In this document: positions 494 to 7,060 of the stretch, one piece after another
How positions within the stretch are numbered: position 1 is the stretch's first letter
Layout: each line of letters starts with the position of its first letter
Assembly (NCBI GenBank): GCA_002686705.1
Contig: NYYH01000103.1
Span: 1-7,060, forward strand
Direction: 5' to 3'
Length of the DNA stretch: 7,060 nt
From: Bacteroidota bacterium
Lineage (GTDB): Bacteria; Bacteroidota; Bacteroidia; Bacteroidales; F082
Notes under the pieces: generated by a model
Told to the model about the DNA's origin: nothing
The model's input: the letters and a program-made list of their open reading frames with translations, nothing else
The model's database searches: none
Made by a program: the position numbers and the translations under genes

Positions 494-1189
494 TTACCAC
501 TCAAATGTATTAGCGTTGTGATTTAACCATTGTTTTTTGTATTTATAATCAGGAACATATTTACCCACTTGATTCCAATATTTCTTAGAATGATTAAGAT
601 ATTTTAAATGGCATAATTCATGTATAACAACGTATTTGATAATTGATTTGGGAGCCATTATAAGCTTCCAGTTATATGTAATCACATCTTTTGAATTACA
701 ACTTCCCCACCTACTTTTATATGATTTTATTTTAACTAATTTGGGATTTAATTTAATTTCATTAGCAATGTCCATAGTCATGTTAGTCAAGAATGATAAA
801 GCTTTTTCCTGAAACCAATTTTGAACAATTTTTTTTCTATATTTTTTATCAGATTTTTTTTTGGTATTAATACAAACTTGAATTTCTCCTGATTTAAGTT
901 TTACCAAATATTTAGAATCCAAGATAAATTTAAGCTTGTAATTTTTTCCTAAATATAGAAATTTTTCAGCAGATTCAAAATTTTTAAAAACAATTTTTGT
1001 TTTTAATTTATTTTCTTTTAATTTACTTTCTATCCAATTTGATTTTTTATGTATTAATGATTTTATTTTAATGTCGGACAAGGTTTTAGGAGCAATTATT
1101 TGTACAATATTATTTTTTATAATGAAAGATATTGTTTTTTTTCTTGAAGTCCTTTTTATTTCTAAGTTAAATTCAGTACCCATTTTCAT
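494..1189 (-). CDS. YgjP/SprT-like (DUF45) zinc metallopeptidase
   Basis: The 231-residue protein has the family signature in order: a lysine-rich N-terminal beta region; SRWGSC (residues 159-164) followed by NWKLIMAP; then HELCH (190-194), with a further histidine at 200 (HExxHx5H) as the expected third zinc ligand. E191 is the expected catalytic base. This matches the YgjP-like family (PF01863, often annotated M48-family or DUF45), usually 220-250 residues, so it appears complete. Known members are cytosolic; their substrates are poorly known, and they are frequently carried near restriction-modification or other defence genes, though none is visible here. The gene is extremely AT-rich and lysine-rich compared with arsM. 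The ATG at 1189 overlaps the TGA of a small upstream ORF (ATGA), with AGAGG about 12 bases upstream. A second ATG two codons in (1183) is an alternative start. Confidence 0.9.
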   Translation of the reverse strand: MKMGTEFNLEIKRTSRKKTISFIIKNNIVQIIAPKTLSDIKIKSLIHKKSNWIESKLKENKLKTKIVFKNFESAEKFLYLGKNYKLKFILDSKYLVKLKSGEIQVCINTKKKSDKKYRKKIVQNWFQEKALSFLTNMTMDIANEIKLNPKLVKIKSYKSRWGSCNSKDVITYNWKLIMAPKSIIKYVVIHELCHLKYLNHSKKYWNQVGKYVPDYKYKKQWLNHNANTFEW

Positions 1190-3239: not shown

Positions 3240-3321
3240 GTTCATCAGCCCAAATTATTTTACCTTTATAGTTCTTATTGACTTCTTTAAGAACTTCATC
3301 TTTAAATTCATCTAAATAATG
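3220..3321 (-). pseudogene. Possible C-terminal remnant of a lost minus-strand gene
   Basis: The gap between the transporter and the methyltransferase carries, on the minus strand, an open frame of 33 codons that looks protein-like: LDEFKDEVLKEVNKNYKG followed by KIIWADELMRVNF and TAG. It alternates charged and hydrophobic residues like an amphipathic helix followed by a strand. It has no start codon with a ribosome site, and the frame runs into the start of the next gene on the opposite strand. I do not recognise the family. It may be the tail of a gene whose remainder was replaced when 3319-3765 was inserted, or chance. Confidence 0.2.
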
Positions 3322-3765
3322 AACAATAAAATCCCACCACCAATTGTGACCCTGTTTTGTGGTTTGGGAATATATTGCTCTAGTTACTTATTTCCAACAT
3401 TCTCTTTTGATTACTCAATACTAATAAGTATTATTTTTGTTTTAATTGGTTTTTTTATCTTCTTATCTGCTATTCGGTTATTCAAAAAACACGAAACTAC
3501 TGTTGACCCCTCAAAACCTGAGAAAGCATCAAGTCTAATTACTAATGGAGTTTTCAAGTACTCAAGAAACCCAATGTATCTAGGAATGTTATTACTACTG
3601 TGCTCAATCTCAATACAATTTAGTCTAGTAGGAGGGTTAATAATAATCCCTATATTTGTATTATTTATTACTAAGTATCAGATTATTCCAGAGGAGAAAG
3701 CAATGGCGATTCTCTTCAAAGAAGATTTTCAATCATACAAAGAAAAGACTAGAAGATGGTTCTGA
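3319..3765 (+). CDS. Isoprenylcysteine carboxyl methyltransferase (ICMT/PEMT-like) membrane protein
   Basis: The 148-residue membrane protein has three to four predicted helices (about residues 8-26, 33-53, 88-117). It carries the C-terminal signature of the ICMT/phospholipid methyltransferase family: NGVFKYSRNPMYLGM (76-90, with R83-N84-P85), then the paired glutamates IPEEKA (123-128) and the end FQSYKEKTRRWF. Members are SAM-dependent methyltransferases of the cytoplasmic membrane. The bacterial versions methylate unknown small hydrophobic substrates rather than prenylated proteins. The length is typical (140-200) and the gene looks complete. The ATG at 3319 lacks an obvious Shine-Dalgarno sequence. 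It follows the transporter by 79 bases and could share its transcript. The hairpin at 3777-3829 probably ends it. Confidence 0.88.
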   Translation: MNNKIPPPIVTLFCGLGIYCSSYLFPTFSFDYSILISIIFVLIGFFIFLSAIRLFKKHETTVDPSKPEKASSLITNGVFKYSRNPMYLGMLLLLCSISIQFSLVGGLIIIPIFVLFITKYQIIPEEKAMAILFKEDFQSYKEKTRRWF

Positions 3766-3856: not shown

Positions 3857-4087
3857 CTATTTGATTTTATTTGATATTAATTCGATGATTTCATTAGAGT
3901 TTGGAAATCTGTTTTCTTGGTATTTTGAAAATATTATTTTTCCGTCTACTTCGACATCAAAAATGCCTTTGTCTTTTTCATTAAGATTGATAGTAGCATT
4001 TTTATATTGTAATTTTATTTCTTCTGACACAGCCTGTGCAGTTGGTAAATAATTTCAAGCACCACAATATGTAATATTAACTTTCAT
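3857..4087 (-). CDS. SelW-like (Rdx family) selenoprotein, UGA read as selenocysteine
   Basis: Read with one in-frame TGA as selenocysteine, this gene gives a 76-residue SelT/SelW/SelH-type protein: MKVNITYCGAU, then NYLPTAQAVSEEIK, and GIFDVEVDGKIIFSK in the second half. The hallmarks of the family are all present: strand beta1 ending in YCxxU (C8, U11), the helix after it, the G-x-F-x-V-x-V-D-G-K-x-I-x-S-K strand pair (41-55), the FP turn (61-62) and a C-terminal helix. These small thioredoxin-fold proteins are thought to act as thiol/selenol redox partners in the cytosol. Length is normal for bacterial members (70-100). The TGA (4057-4055) is exactly at the redox position where homologues have Cys or Sec, and reading resumes in frame to a TAG at 3859-3857. 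A SECIS-like hairpin follows it. A TAAAAT seven bases before the ATG hints at a leaderless message. The alternatives are a sequencing error or a recent nonsense mutation of Cys. Confidence 0.85.
4024..4057 (-). promoter_or_regulatory. Bacterial SECIS-like element with the Sec UGA codon
   Basis: On the minus strand the TGA (4057-4055) is followed by 13 bases and then CTGCACAGGCTGTGTCAG (4041-4024). This folds as CTG-CACA paired with TGTG-(T)-CAG, seven pairs with one bulged U and a GGC loop. The paired G residues of the loop lie 20 bases after the UGA. In the Escherichia coli fdhF SECIS, a short hairpin with a bulged U and GG in its loop lies at nearly the same distance (about 18 bases), which is what SelB recognises. 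Here the bulged U is on the 3' arm rather than the 5' arm. AATTATTT next to the UGA could form an extra lower helix with AAATAAAATT. Confidence 0.65.
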
Positions 4088-4120
4088 ATTAATTATTTTA
4101 GTTTTTAAAATAGTACGATA

Positions 4121-4139
4121 TATGAAGTTTCCCTTCATA
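4121..4139. other. Perfect 7-bp hairpin between the tRNA fragment and the selenoprotein gene
   Basis: TATGAAG (4121-4127) pairs with CTTCATA (4133-4139) around a five-base loop. It lies eight bases after the CCA end of the tRNA-Gly fragment, where a tRNA terminator or processing signal would be expected, but no T run follows. Confidence 0.4.
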
Positions 4140-4146
4140 GAAAGAG

Positions 4147-4191
4147 TGGAGCGGAAGACGAGATTCGAACTCGCGACCTTCTCCTTGGCAA
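4147..4191 (-). tRNA. tRNA-Gly(GCC) 3' half: attachment-site scar
   Basis: On the minus strand this reads, 5' to 3': anticodon loop TTGCCAA (anticodon GCC, 4191-4185), the 3' anticodon-stem strand GGAGA, variable loop, T arm GCGAGTTCGAATCTCGT, the 3' acceptor strand CTTCCGC, U discriminator and CCA (4149-4147). That is exactly the 3' half of a bacterial tRNA-Gly. Upstream of the loop the match stops: the bases GATAA cannot pair with GGAGA, and no D arm or 5' acceptor strand is present, so no functional tRNA is made here. Tyrosine integrases commonly cross over in the anticodon loop and leave such a 3' fragment at the distal end of the inserted element. By that logic host DNA lies to the left (selenoprotein side) and the element to the right. 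An ancestral split tRNA is possible but much less likely. Confidence 0.85.
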
Positions 4192-4393
4192 TTATCCTTA
4201 TAGTATTTCAAACTAATTCAAGATAAATTTACTACCTTCAGTAGTTACCTTATTAATAGCTCATATTGTAGCAGAATGTATCTTCTTGCGTTTGGGTAAA
4301 TGTTTGGGTAAATGTTGCAAAACACCGTAACACTGCTGCTGCAACCGTAATATCAAATTATAGGTATGGCTAATATAATTGTTAAAATGGATA
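4192..4393. other. Intergenic region of the putative att site
   Basis: No gene is seen. It holds a 12-bp perfect tandem repeat (TTTGGGTAAATG at 4291-4302 and 4303-4314), which runs into the left 51-bp direct repeat. No integrase C-terminus is recognisable on either strand, so if an integrase drove the insertion it is outside the window or lost. Confidence 0.5.
4309..4359 (+). repeat. 51-bp imperfect direct repeat, left copy
   Basis: This matches 5034-5084 at 45 of 51 positions, including a perfect 18-base core TGCTGCTGCAACCGTAAT. The two copies bracket the isochorismatase-family gene. In both, a frame of ATG-TTG runs to the same TAA inside the repeat (MLQNTVTLLLQP here, MLRNPVIVLLQP in the right copy). 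Confidence 0.8.
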
Positions 4394-4954
4394 TTAAATT
4401 TTAACTTTAGTTCCTGTAGTCCAGGATTCTATAATTTCACCAGAAGTTAATGATTTAGCATTGTATATCGTTTTAATGTACTCTAATCCAGAGTTGTGAT
4501 CCTCATCAGTTAATGCTTCTACACAATCTGTAGCGATAGTTAATCCATAGCCTTTGTGGAAAGCATCTGCTGCAGTATGTCTGCAACAAATATGAGTATG
4601 AAGCCCAGCTATTACAATAGAATCAACTTTTAATCTTCTCAATAGGAGATCAAGCCCAGTTTCAAAGAATGCAGAATAAGTTCTTTTTTCTAGAACATGA
4701 TCACCTTCCTGAGGTTGTAGCTCTTTTATTGTTTCTGATTCAGGAGTTCCTTTCATAGCGTGTTCTCCAAATACTTCTAATTCAGGGTCTGTAGGTAAGT
4801 GAGCATCACCTACAAATACAACTTCATTTTCTGATTCTCTTGCAGATTTAATTAATGATTGTATTGGAGGAATTATTTTTTGAGCACGATCAGTTTGAAG
4901 GATACCATAAACAAAGTCATAAACCATATCGACTACAATTACTGCTTCTTTCAT
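4394..4954 (-). CDS. Isochorismatase-family cysteine hydrolase (nicotinamidase-like)
   Basis: The 186-residue protein (counted from the ATG at 4954) has a complete catalytic triad for this family: D9 in VIVVDMVYDF, K90 in LEKRTYSAFF, and C123 in GLHTHICCRHTAADAF. Metal ligands as in nicotinamidases can be proposed: D50 and H52 in VGDAHLPTD, and H65 before MKGTPESE. The family hydrolyses amides or vinyl ethers, such as nicotinamide to nicotinate or isochorismate to dihydroxybenzoate. The D-x-H, H and GT-x-E pattern favours a nicotinamidase-like amidase, but the substrate is not proven. Length is typical (180-210). A frame extends upstream to a TTG at 4975, but I chose 4954 because AAAGGA lies about nine bases before this ATG. 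It is a lone gene between direct repeats, like a cargo gene. Confidence 0.92.
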   Translation of the reverse strand: MKEAVIVVDMVYDFVYGILQTDRAQKIIPPIQSLIKSARESENEVVFVGDAHLPTDPELEVFGEHAMKGTPESETIKELQPQEGDHVLEKRTYSAFFETGLDLLLRRLKVDSIVIAGLHTHICCRHTAADAFHKGYGLTIATDCVEALTDEDHNSGLEYIKTIYNAKSLTSGEIIESWTTGTKVKI

Positions 4955-5000
4955 CTCATCATCCTTTGCAAACAAATAATTAAAAGATATTATTAGCCTA

Positions 5001-5013
5001 TATTATATCAGAA
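5001..5013 (-). promoter_or_regulatory. Extended -10 promoter of the isochorismatase-family gene
   Basis: The minus strand reads TTCTGATATAATA (TATAAT at 5007-5002), the same extended -10 core as at 2207-2218 and 6484-6495. The expected start near 4995 leaves a leader of about 40 bases containing the AAAGGA ribosome site. No good -35 box is seen, as is usual with extended -10 promoters. Confidence 0.6.
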
Positions 5014-5033
5014 CTTATTTTGATGGGTTTTGA

Positions 5034-5084
5034 TAAATGTTGCGAAACCCCGTAATAGTGCTGCTGCAACCGTAATGTCATATT
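5034..5084 (+). repeat. 51-bp imperfect direct repeat, right copy
   Basis: Partner of 4309-4359, offset by 725 bp. The right end overlaps the open frame of the terminase-like remnant, which may be the original source of the repeat. Confidence 0.8.
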
Positions 5085-5178
5085 TAGTTACAGGGCCTTA
5101 CCTGGTAAAGATTTCAGGGCTACACAATGGGCAACTATTACAACTAAGGTACTATCGGAACAATCAAAGCTGTATGGC

Positions 5179-5412
5179 TTGAATACGGGTGATTTAAACA
5201 TCAATATAGACCAACGCAATCAATACATTAACCCCGACAGAAACCACCCTGAGAATGTAGCTATCAGAGAAAAACTAGCTAAGTCTATGAACGGATATAT
5301 TAAGCAACAAGTAACAACCTTTATATGCGCATATGTATTAGGGGAAGAATACAAGAACCTACCTGAACAAGATGGATTATTAAAAGAATATATTGGAGAT
5401 ATATATGAATAG
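5179..5412 (+). CDS. Truncated small-terminase-like phage protein (remnant)
   Basis: The 77-codon frame from a TTG at 5179 is the C-terminal part of a longer open frame that begins after a TAG at 5056. The upstream part (from about 5098) reads LPGKDFRATQWATITTKVLS, then EQSKLYGLNTGDLNINIDQRNQYI. In my judgement this resembles the C-terminal region of phage small terminase subunits and related DNA-packaging proteins, where a 'WAT..KLAEQS+LYGL' helix is followed by a beta tail. That is recognition by pattern only. In another frame just upstream, LRNPVIVLLQP resembles the end of the helix-turn-helix region of such proteins, so the N-terminus was probably lost by frameshift and truncation. No start with a ribosome site is visible; the TTG is a formal choice. 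The frame overlaps the next ORF by eight bases. Confidence 0.5.
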   Translation: MNTGDLNINIDQRNQYINPDRNHPENVAIREKLAKSMNGYIKQQVTTFICAYVLGEEYKNLPEQDGLLKEYIGDIYE

Positions 5413-5644
5413 CAAAGAGCAAGACCAATGGAAGCAGCAGCTACAGAATGTGGAAGAAGTTATCAAAGACCCTGAAACTCCTCAAGGCATTAAGGAATTG
5501 CTGTTTGAGTGGCTTAATGACGGAGAAGAAGACACAGAGCCAAAGGTATATGCAGAAATATTAACCGGTGCTATGCATACAGACAAAGAGCATAAAGCTA
5601 AAGGTCACACAGAAGAAGATTGCTACGACCTGAAAGTATTTTAA
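5405..5644 (+). CDS. Small acidic hypothetical protein, coupled to the terminase-like remnant
   Basis: The 79-residue protein has no recognised family. It is rich in glutamate, aspartate, lysine and glutamine, with no membrane segment. It begins with a charged helix (MNSKEQDQWKQQLQNVEEVI), followed by a PETPQGIKELLFEWL segment, and its histidine-rich end contains HTDKEHKAKGHTEEDC. The ATG at 5405 has a good ribosome site (GGAG, six bases upstream) and overlaps the upstream stop in ATGAATAG, so the two genes are translationally coupled. The context suggests a small phage or satellite protein next to the packaging gene. A TTG at 5393 in the same frame is inside the ribosome site and unlikely. 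This one looks like a real, intact gene. Confidence 0.65.
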   Translation: MNSKEQDQWKQQLQNVEEVIKDPETPQGIKELLFEWLNDGEEDTEPKVYAEILTGAMHTDKEHKAKGHTEEDCYDLKVF

Positions 5645-5645
5645 T

Positions 5646-5700
5646 TCACCTCTGGTGCAAGGTGACACCTCTCCCTCTTAAGATATTTAAAATATATCTT
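5646..5700 (+). terminator. Two hairpins after the small acidic gene
   Basis: TCACCT (5646-5651) pairs with AGGTGA (5660-5665), starting two bases after the TAA. AAGATAT (5680-5686) pairs with ATATCTT (5694-5700). Neither is followed by a long T run, so termination here is only plausible. Confidence 0.35.
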
Positions 5701-5941
5701 CTGTTATTCTAGGTGCTGAATATAAACCACCCACAAACCACCTACGAACATATCTATTTTTTGTAGTTTATTGGTGGTATCAAGAGCATCAATCCATGCA
5801 TTACAGCTAGTGACATTTAACTTGTCATACTCCCACAGGAATAACTTGTCATACTGATAACTATAGTAGGCATTATTTTAAATCTTTTAAAATCAACTCT
5901 TTTTTTATATTGTCGGATTTTGTGCCATTATTAAATTAGGT
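5701..5941. other. Intergenic with short repeats, no gene seen
   Basis: No ORF of note on either strand. It contains two copies of AAACCACC around 5725-5745 with a possible inverse (GGTGGT) near 5772, and a perfect 14-bp direct repeat TAACTTGTCATACT at 5818-5831 and 5842-5855. The spacing of 24 bases is about two helical turns, as for a protein-binding site. Confidence 0.5.
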
Positions 5942-5991
5942 ACTTTTGAGATACTTATTTCCCTACGCGTGTGCGAGAAGCCTTGCACTAG

Positions 5992-6308
5992 AGATTAATT
6001 TGATGGACTTAGGATTCTCACAGGGAATTTCAATAAACAATAATTACCAACGAAGGTTCGCTTCAACCACTGTAATTTGTGTATCCTAAGTTCCATCAAA
6101 TTTCTACCCGAACCATGATGAGGAGGAGTTACCCATATTCTTACCTGCACCTTATCGACTGTTTCGGGTGTATTTTTTAATATTATTGAATATTATTGAA
6201 CTGTTATAGGTTCATTTACACCATACGAATTTTAGACCCTTTTTGTAAAAAAAAGTTTGTCATGCCTATGTATAAGCCCAAACAAGAAAGCCTAAGCCAT
6301 GCCCCCTA
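5992..6308 (+). repeat. ~310 bp direct repeat, copy 2
   Basis: Same orientation as 69-375, 5.9 kb away. Differences include a rewritten block at 6067-6081, one base lost at about 6126, T7 shortened to T6, and a 10-bp tandem insertion (TATTATTGAA) at about 6181-6200. Confidence 0.85.
5998..6258 (+). ncRNA. Candidate structured RNA, copy 2
   Basis: The same helices as in copy 1 can form. H1: 5998-6015 with 6083-6101. H2 is rebuilt differently: CACA (6019-6022) with TGTG (6078-6081), and AATT (6026-6029) with AATT (6074-6077). The small hairpin is GAAG (6052-6055) with CTTC (6061-6064). H3: ACCCGAA (6106-6112) with TTCGGGT (6163-6169), followed by six T. The last hairpin is AGAC (6234-6237) with GTTT (6255-6258), using one G-U pair. 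The inverted repeats at 5942-5970 and 6399-6427 could add an outer closing helix. Confidence 0.5.
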
Positions 6309-6370
6309 CATCATCTACAACCCCACAAGCTAACAACCTACCTATCAACCTAACAACAAGAACTATAAGA
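6300..6370 (+). promoter_or_regulatory. C-rich, G-poor tract, possible Rho-utilisation-like region
   Basis: After the structured repeat the + strand has a run rich in CAACC, CTAACAAC and similar words with hardly any G. A weaker version follows copy 1 (about 340-415). Unstructured C-over-G RNA of this sort is what Rho loads on. This is a suggestion from composition only. Confidence 0.2.
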
Positions 6371-6482
6371 CATACTCTATTTAGAATTAACTGCTTCTAC
6401 GCGTACCACAATAAGAGTCTCAAAAGTTAGGGGTTAGTTATGGTACAAAATAAAACAAGGTTTTAAATATCAATTTATGATC

Positions 6483-6516
6483 ATTCTGATATAATACTCA
6501 ATCTGTAAGTATGTAT
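6483..6516 (+). promoter_or_regulatory. Extended -10 promoter, second copy of the 34-bp block
   Basis: One base differs from 2206-2239; TATAAT at 6490-6495 with the TG of an extended -10. It points right, into the 3' end of the minus-strand gene at 6541, so a transcript from here would be antisense to that gene. No + strand gene follows within the window. Confidence 0.4.
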
Positions 6517-6540
6517 ATAATCTATGGTCAGATAAATATC

Positions 6541-7060
6541 TTATGGTTTTTTGGAAGATCCATTAGTTGGAGAGGATTCAGAGGAAGTCGTTTCTAATAC
6601 ATCAGGGCCTAAATTATCTTTATTCGGCGGAGATGAAACTTGAAGTTGCACATAAACTTCAGGGTCATCAGAATTTCCTTCATTAGCAAAGTCGTCACCC
6701 TCGCATACTAGCGGGTTCTTGGCACGTTCTTCTGCAGTTATTATAAAGTCTGACCTCGATACATCGGCAATTTTCTGGTATTCATTAAATACATCATCAG
6801 TCATAAACTCAAAAATTGAGTGGAGCTGGACTTTAGCCCTGCATCCTGAGAGTTTACTCAGTAAGAAGCTTTGCCGTAAATTGGCAGAGTTGCATGGGCT
6901 GGGAATCCCAGACCCATCTAGATGTCTCTTCACTATAATTTCCCCTAGTCCATATCCTATGAGATCACCAGCTTTAACGCGGTACCCTTCTGTGGCTGGC
7001 CTAGAGACTCCCATCATCATCCAATGTCCTTTAGTTGGAGGAACTTTCTTGATTATTTCA
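6541..7060 (-). CDS. C-terminal part of an unrecognised protein, truncated by the window edge
   Basis: The frame is open to the right edge (the codons before the internal methionine triplet read EIIKKVPPTKGHW), so the true start lies outside the window and at least 173 residues are visible. The visible protein has a globular part (GVSRPATEGYRVKAGDLIGY and following, to about EERAKNPLVC), then an acidic stretch (EGDDFANEGNSDDPE) and a serine/proline-rich disordered tail ending SSESSPTNGSSKKP. I do not recognise a family. An acidic, disordered C-terminus next to packaging-gene remnants would fit a phage structural protein such as a portal protein, but this is speculation. The GC content is visibly higher than in neighbouring DNA, suggesting separate origin. 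Confidence 0.7.
   Translation of the reverse strand, partial: EIIKKVPPTKGHWMMMGVSRPATEGYRVKAGDLIGYGLGEIIVKRHLDGSGIPSPCNSANLRQSFLLSKLSGCRAKVQLHSIFEFMTDDVFNEYQKIADVSRSDFIITAEERAKNPLVCEGDDFANEGNSDDPEVYVQLQVSSPPNKDNLGPDVLETTSSESSPTNGSSKKP

Follow-up and report, generated by a model that had tools for sequence, protein, structure and literature searches.

A SelW-like gene with an in-frame UGA in a Bacteroidota contig almost certainly encodes a small selenium-containing redox protein

Selenoproteins resembling SelW have been described in large numbers from the sea. The Sargasso Sea set holds 48 SelW-like genes, its most abundant selenoprotein family, which are listed among the known selenoproteins, and a figure legend of the same paper describes a bacterial SECIS drawn for one of them (PMC1088965). 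The Global Ocean Sampling description counts 427 SelW-like proteins with CxxU, again the largest selenoprotein family (PMC2398784), so that the statement in the original prediction for the DNA studied here, that SelW-like proteins are common among marine selenoproteins, agrees with what both marine sets report in print. What these proteins do is described as unclear: a redox role is suggested and an interaction with glutathione is mentioned (PMC1088965).

The window, by which we mean the whole 7,060-nt stretch of contig NYYH01000103.1 that was analysed, carries a gene of this kind at 3857–4087. Compared with the Sargasso Sea and Global Ocean Sampling proteins as they are described in print, its product has the same CxxU motif and in-frame UGA, and no difference in kind was seen. 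The gene is a further member of a family that has been in print, abundance included, since at least 2005.

Gene frame, family assignment and predicted fold

The original prediction gave no strand; the gene lies on the minus strand, where the frame from 4087 to 3857 starts with ATG and runs for 76 codons to a TAG stop, with a single interruption, a TGA at codon 11 (4055–4057). Read as selenocysteine (Sec), it yields MKVNITYCGA-U-NYLPTAQAVSEEIKLQYKNATINLNEKDKGIFDVEVDGKIIFSKYQENRFPNSNEIIELISNKIK. The motif at the TGA is C8-G-A-U11, with the Cys codon of residue 8 at 4064–4066, and as the first strand is predicted to span residues 2–8, the window protein carries the CxxC/CxxU motif at the end of that strand. 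Profile searches placed the translated frame in the Rdx family: Pfam PF10262 (Rdx) covers residues 2–72 with an E value of 3.8e-21 and 75.5 bits against a cut-off of 22.6, TIGR02174 scores 63.5 bits against 34.2, and the NCBIfam model NF041051 (SelTWH_Campy) scores 91 bits against 88, a small margin. As both flanks of the TGA fall within one Pfam domain, the match is well beyond chance. A complete Rdx-family protein across the TGA, with the TGA at the redox position of CxxU, is what had been predicted; all three models lie over their curated cut-offs, and the search against Rdx/SelT-SelW-SelH members that had been proposed as a check gave a near-full-length family match.

Under translation table 11, gene calling leaves just a GTG-started piece of 57 aa (3857–4030), downstream of the TGA. 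This is also the sole form in which the product appears in the protein collection, where the piece makes up a separate cluster (P0002; 3 member sequences, 4 contigs, the window among the encoders), in line with the prediction that standard gene callers stop at the TGA. Another 57-aa piece in the database (P0003) shares 58% identity with the window protein over the matched part.

An AlphaFold model built from a 27-row alignment, with Cys in place of Sec, reached a mean pLDDT of 93.8 and shows the order E-H-E-E-E-H-H. Foldseek returned 2fa8_A as the best PDB match (TM 0.90), and the SelW-related entries 2fa8, 2obk, 2oka, 3dex and 2p0g have TM 0.84–0.92 among the matches listed; mouse SelW (2npb), at TM 0.69, ranks below these. 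A search by sequence instead put protein C17orf37 (2ljk) first among PDB entries. Set beside the structures from Agrobacterium (2fa8), Pseudomonas (2obk) and Vibrio (2p0g), the window protein has the same predicted fold, with TM 0.87–0.92 by query length among the chains listed, although it is just 21–28% identical to them, and 2fa8 has CxxC where the window protein has CxxU. We take 2obk and 2p0g to be Cys forms as well. With confidence at the level of the model, the window protein is predicted to adopt the thioredoxin-like fold of SelW.

Conservation of the TGA and selenocysteine machinery in relatives

Relatives were sought with an alignment of the window protein and three database homologs, by scanning a collection of genome contigs (genome_contigs), described as covering 84,980 species with a single genome apiece. 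The scan patterns were drawn from the C-terminal half only and reach the nearer part of the family; drawn in this way, they select neither for nor against the TGA. Of 539 stretches returned, 25 encode a relative, 33–52% identical to the window protein. In every one of these 25 the corresponding codon is TGA, which makes Sec the common state of the group. By record title, six relatives belong to Neomarinimicrobiota/Marinimicrobia, eight to Deltaproteobacteria or Desulfocapsa, Desulfogranum and Desulfobacteraceae, and two to Acidobacteria; Obscuribacterales, Campylobacter, Neobacillus, Anaerolineales, Binataceae and Nitrospirae contribute one each, and three titles give no group name. Neither viral contigs (queries P0001 and A1) nor phage records held a relative, and plasmid records gave three matches to the protein, at 27–34% identity.

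Before the TGA, I5, Y7 and C8 are nearly invariant in the family alignment, the Cys of residue 8 being present in 24 of the 25 relatives. The one departure is a Nitrospirae MAG (L024:4001–4159), which keeps the TGA and has Trp for the first Cys, and whose match spans residues 3–55 only; the copy may be decaying, or the assembly may be wrong here. In the homolog P0004, Cys replaces Sec, and this protein, like 2fa8, indicates that Cys-type Rdx proteins exist outside the scanned group. The pattern by which selenoprotein genes are recognised, a TGA conserved at the redox position with Cys at that place in another homolog, is thus found here.

The relatives' genomes, 23 of whose 25 records are titled MAG, were searched for the Sec machinery. 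Over the curated cut-offs, SelB was found in 22 of 25, SelA in 23 and SelD in 24, while tRNA-Sec reached its cut-off in 16 of 25, a soft count, as this model also exceeded its cut-off in 5 of 14 well-known control genomes and was the least selective of the four. The same controls gave SelA in one genome (E. coli), SelD in two and SelB in two. At E 0.001, SelB and tRNA-Sec had matches in all 25 genomes; these were discarded because all 14 controls also match, and the curated cut-off was used instead. Of the 24 genomes with SelD, 20 have a best SelD match that itself contains one in-frame TGA, and this SelD is likely a second selenoprotein in those 20 genomes. Among eight other proteins of the window, searched with Pfam and five of them also with NCBIfam, there was no Sec machinery protein.

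The hairpin downstream of the UGA and alternative readings

The original prediction proposed a search for a bacterial SECIS. Across the family such an element is well supported by a covarying hairpin, whereas in the window itself the support is weak. The window sequence and its 25 relatives were aligned from the TGA onward without gaps, and in these 26 sequences a 7-bp helix (columns 19–25 with 29–35) has 86.8% of its cells paired, six of its seven pairs varying on both sides. Its covariation score of 0.469 was reached by none of 500 shuffles, counts that are not to be read as probabilities since the relatives are akin and the region is coding, and six slid controls scored 0.063–0.214. The loop of the most stable model hairpin begins 21 or 22 nt past the UGA in 23 of the 25 relatives; the other two, L002 and L007, have a different hairpin as their most stable one under the model, with spacings of 33 and 35, and were left out of that count. 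Taken together, the covariation and the loop spacing indicate that the family carries a hairpin resembling a bacterial SECIS (bSECIS).

In the window, the candidate bSECIS hairpin lies at 4024–4041 on the minus strand and has 7 bp, one bulged U, a GGC loop and 20 nt from the UGA to the loop. The published model, as laid out in PMC13188914, allows a loop of 3–9 nt, an upper stem of 4–16 bp and a spacing of 16–37 nt, with G in the first two loop positions according to the legend of its Fig. 2, and sets a free-energy limit of −7.5 kcal/mol; the same source places a subset of putative bSECIS elements outside the model. The window hairpin falls within the limits for loop, stem and spacing and misses that for energy, its fold energy over 45–58 nt from the UGA being −6.3 kcal/mol (z-scores −0.7 to +0.2). 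An initial reading of this hairpin as unusually stable, drawn from dinucleotide shuffles (1 of 100 equalled or exceeded its stability, and 16 of 100 contained a model hairpin of some sort), was dropped: 42 of 300 synonymous recodings were at least as stable, 189 of 300 contained some model hairpin, and at other codon positions (every fifth codon in six other window frames) 31 of 237 matched or bettered it. The shortest stem-loop allowed was 11 nt in the recoding and codon-position controls and 13 nt in the shuffle test.

Nor does the window follow the family helix closely. It forms three of the seven family pairs, columns 19–35, 21–33, 22–32 and 24–30 being G-A, A-A, C-C and G-G, and its own helix sits 2 nt closer to the UGA. 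This helix has no covariation across the family in the 26-sequence alignment, and Rfam gave five matches in the window, all under the gathering score and none a SECIS. With size, loop and spacing within the model but the energy limit and the recoding and covariation controls adverse, a SECIS in the window is no more than plausible. It is conceivable, though we put it forward tentatively and think it rather doubtful, that the window's SECIS has moved into another pairing register without an indel, its loop now following after 20 nt; a hairpin shifted in this way means that the SelB of this lineage must tolerate the new register or has adapted to it.

This displaced hairpin bears on two rival accounts of the TGA. 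One holds that a Cys codon, TGC or TGT, became TGA by one change, leaving a gene that is dead or was read wrongly; both codons are one base from TGA, Cys-type Rdx proteins are known (P0004; 2fa8), and a hairpin off the family register would suit a pseudogene. Against such an account, the TGA is likewise present in all 25 relatives and the remaining frame is intact to the TAG and conserved, and we consider a pseudogene or sequencing error improbable. The other would have Sec decoding recently lost and the gene left as a relic giving at most the 57-aa GTG-started piece. The shifted, weak hairpin speaks for this, as does the cluster that the piece has to itself (P0002), though gene callers would be expected to produce that anyway. 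A relic would, however, soon lose the residues that precede the TGA, and these are kept, the nearly invariant I5, Y7 and C8 among them; moreover, the piece begins at residue 20 and, on the predicted structure, would have neither the first strand (2–8) nor the active site. Such a loss seems to us highly improbable.

A TGA reassigned genome-wide to one of the ordinary amino acids (Trp or Gly) would also put the codon in frame at position 11, and of these accounts it is the one to which we give the least credence, next to none. The frame at 3319–3765 stops at a TGA 13 residues past its PEMT domain, and reading on adds just 13 residues; Sec machinery is present in most of the relatives' genomes; and P0004 has Cys at the place of the TGA, neither Trp nor Gly. 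Either a chance TGA or an altered genetic code is unlikely for codon 11. We instead favour, at a probability of roughly 0.9, the reading in which 3857–4087 is a bacterial selW-like gene whose UGA-11 is decoded as selenocysteine via SelB, Sec-tRNA and a downstream hairpin, and whose product is a CxxU redox protein.

Surroundings, proposed decoding and meaning

A 45-nt 3' fragment of a tRNA-Gly(GCC) occupies 4147–4191 on the minus strand, with the selenoprotein gene some 60 bp past its 3' end. The fragment shares 95.6% identity with the 3' portion of a Monoglobus tRNA-Gly and was the only match of the window DNA to plasmid records in near mode. No recognisable 5' half follows the fragment, and no tRNA gene was found in the window. 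Where an element has integrated into a tRNA gene, a fragment of this kind marks its distal end, and this one looks like the attachment-site remnant of an integrated element above 4191. If it is, sequence above 4191 would belong to the element, and the selenoprotein gene to the host. The window showed no integrase, and a distant-mode comparison of 4100–7060 with phage records gave no match.

Several repeats were observed. A repeat of about 300 bp stands near both window ends (69–375 and 5992–6308), with register blocks 90–100% identical, and a 22-nt piece of it had no exact match in viral contigs. A 58-nt direct repeat (4302–4359 and 5027–5084, 86% identical) flanks an isochorismatase-like gene, and a 25-nt pattern from it likewise had no match in viral contigs; a 42-nt direct repeat (2198–2239 and 6475–6516, 93% identical) lies between genes. 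The window also encodes an EamA protein and, at 1399–2148 on the minus strand, an arsenite methyltransferase over the cut-off of NF008823. This ArsM was matched below cut-off by selenoprotein ArsM models and ends in TAA, with no in-frame TGA; at E 1e-20 it was matched in the genomes of 9 of the 25 relatives, at no more than 48% identity. To place the host, the EamA protein was compared at E 1e-40 with 199, 301 and 199 genomes from the phyla of the genomes G001, G020 and G025, which gave just two matches, of 32% identity and both in the sample of 301; the isochorismatase-like protein had none in 245 genomes from the phylum of G018 and 301 from the order of G020. Four of these five samples were subsets of larger groups, to which the host may still belong, and G001, G018 and G025 seem to share a phylum, as their samples have genomes in common. 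The G+C content varies strongly among the genes: it is 33% for the window, 23% in 494–1189 (minus strand) and 42% in 6541–7059 (minus strand), a frame for which neither Pfam nor NCBIfam gave a match at E 1.

As the family suggests, UGA-11 would be decoded as Sec by SelB and Sec-tRNA, helped by a hairpin just downstream, giving a 76-residue protein of predicted thioredoxin fold whose first strand ends in a CxxU redox pair. By analogy with SelW, the protein would most likely reduce, by way of a selenenylsulfide between Cys8 and Sec11, either a disulfide or a partner whose thiol is glutathionylated or oxidised. For this organism we infer the Sec decoding, the reliance on this hairpin in particular and the redox chemistry alike; it is almost certain that the stretch makes up a whole gene, coding for a small redox protein that contains selenium.

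The gene adds a further instance of standard gene calling losing a selenoprotein, and the family-wide covariation downstream of its UGA neatly illustrates the conservation of the bacterial SECIS. For the organism itself, the gene marks the host as a probable user of selenocysteine.
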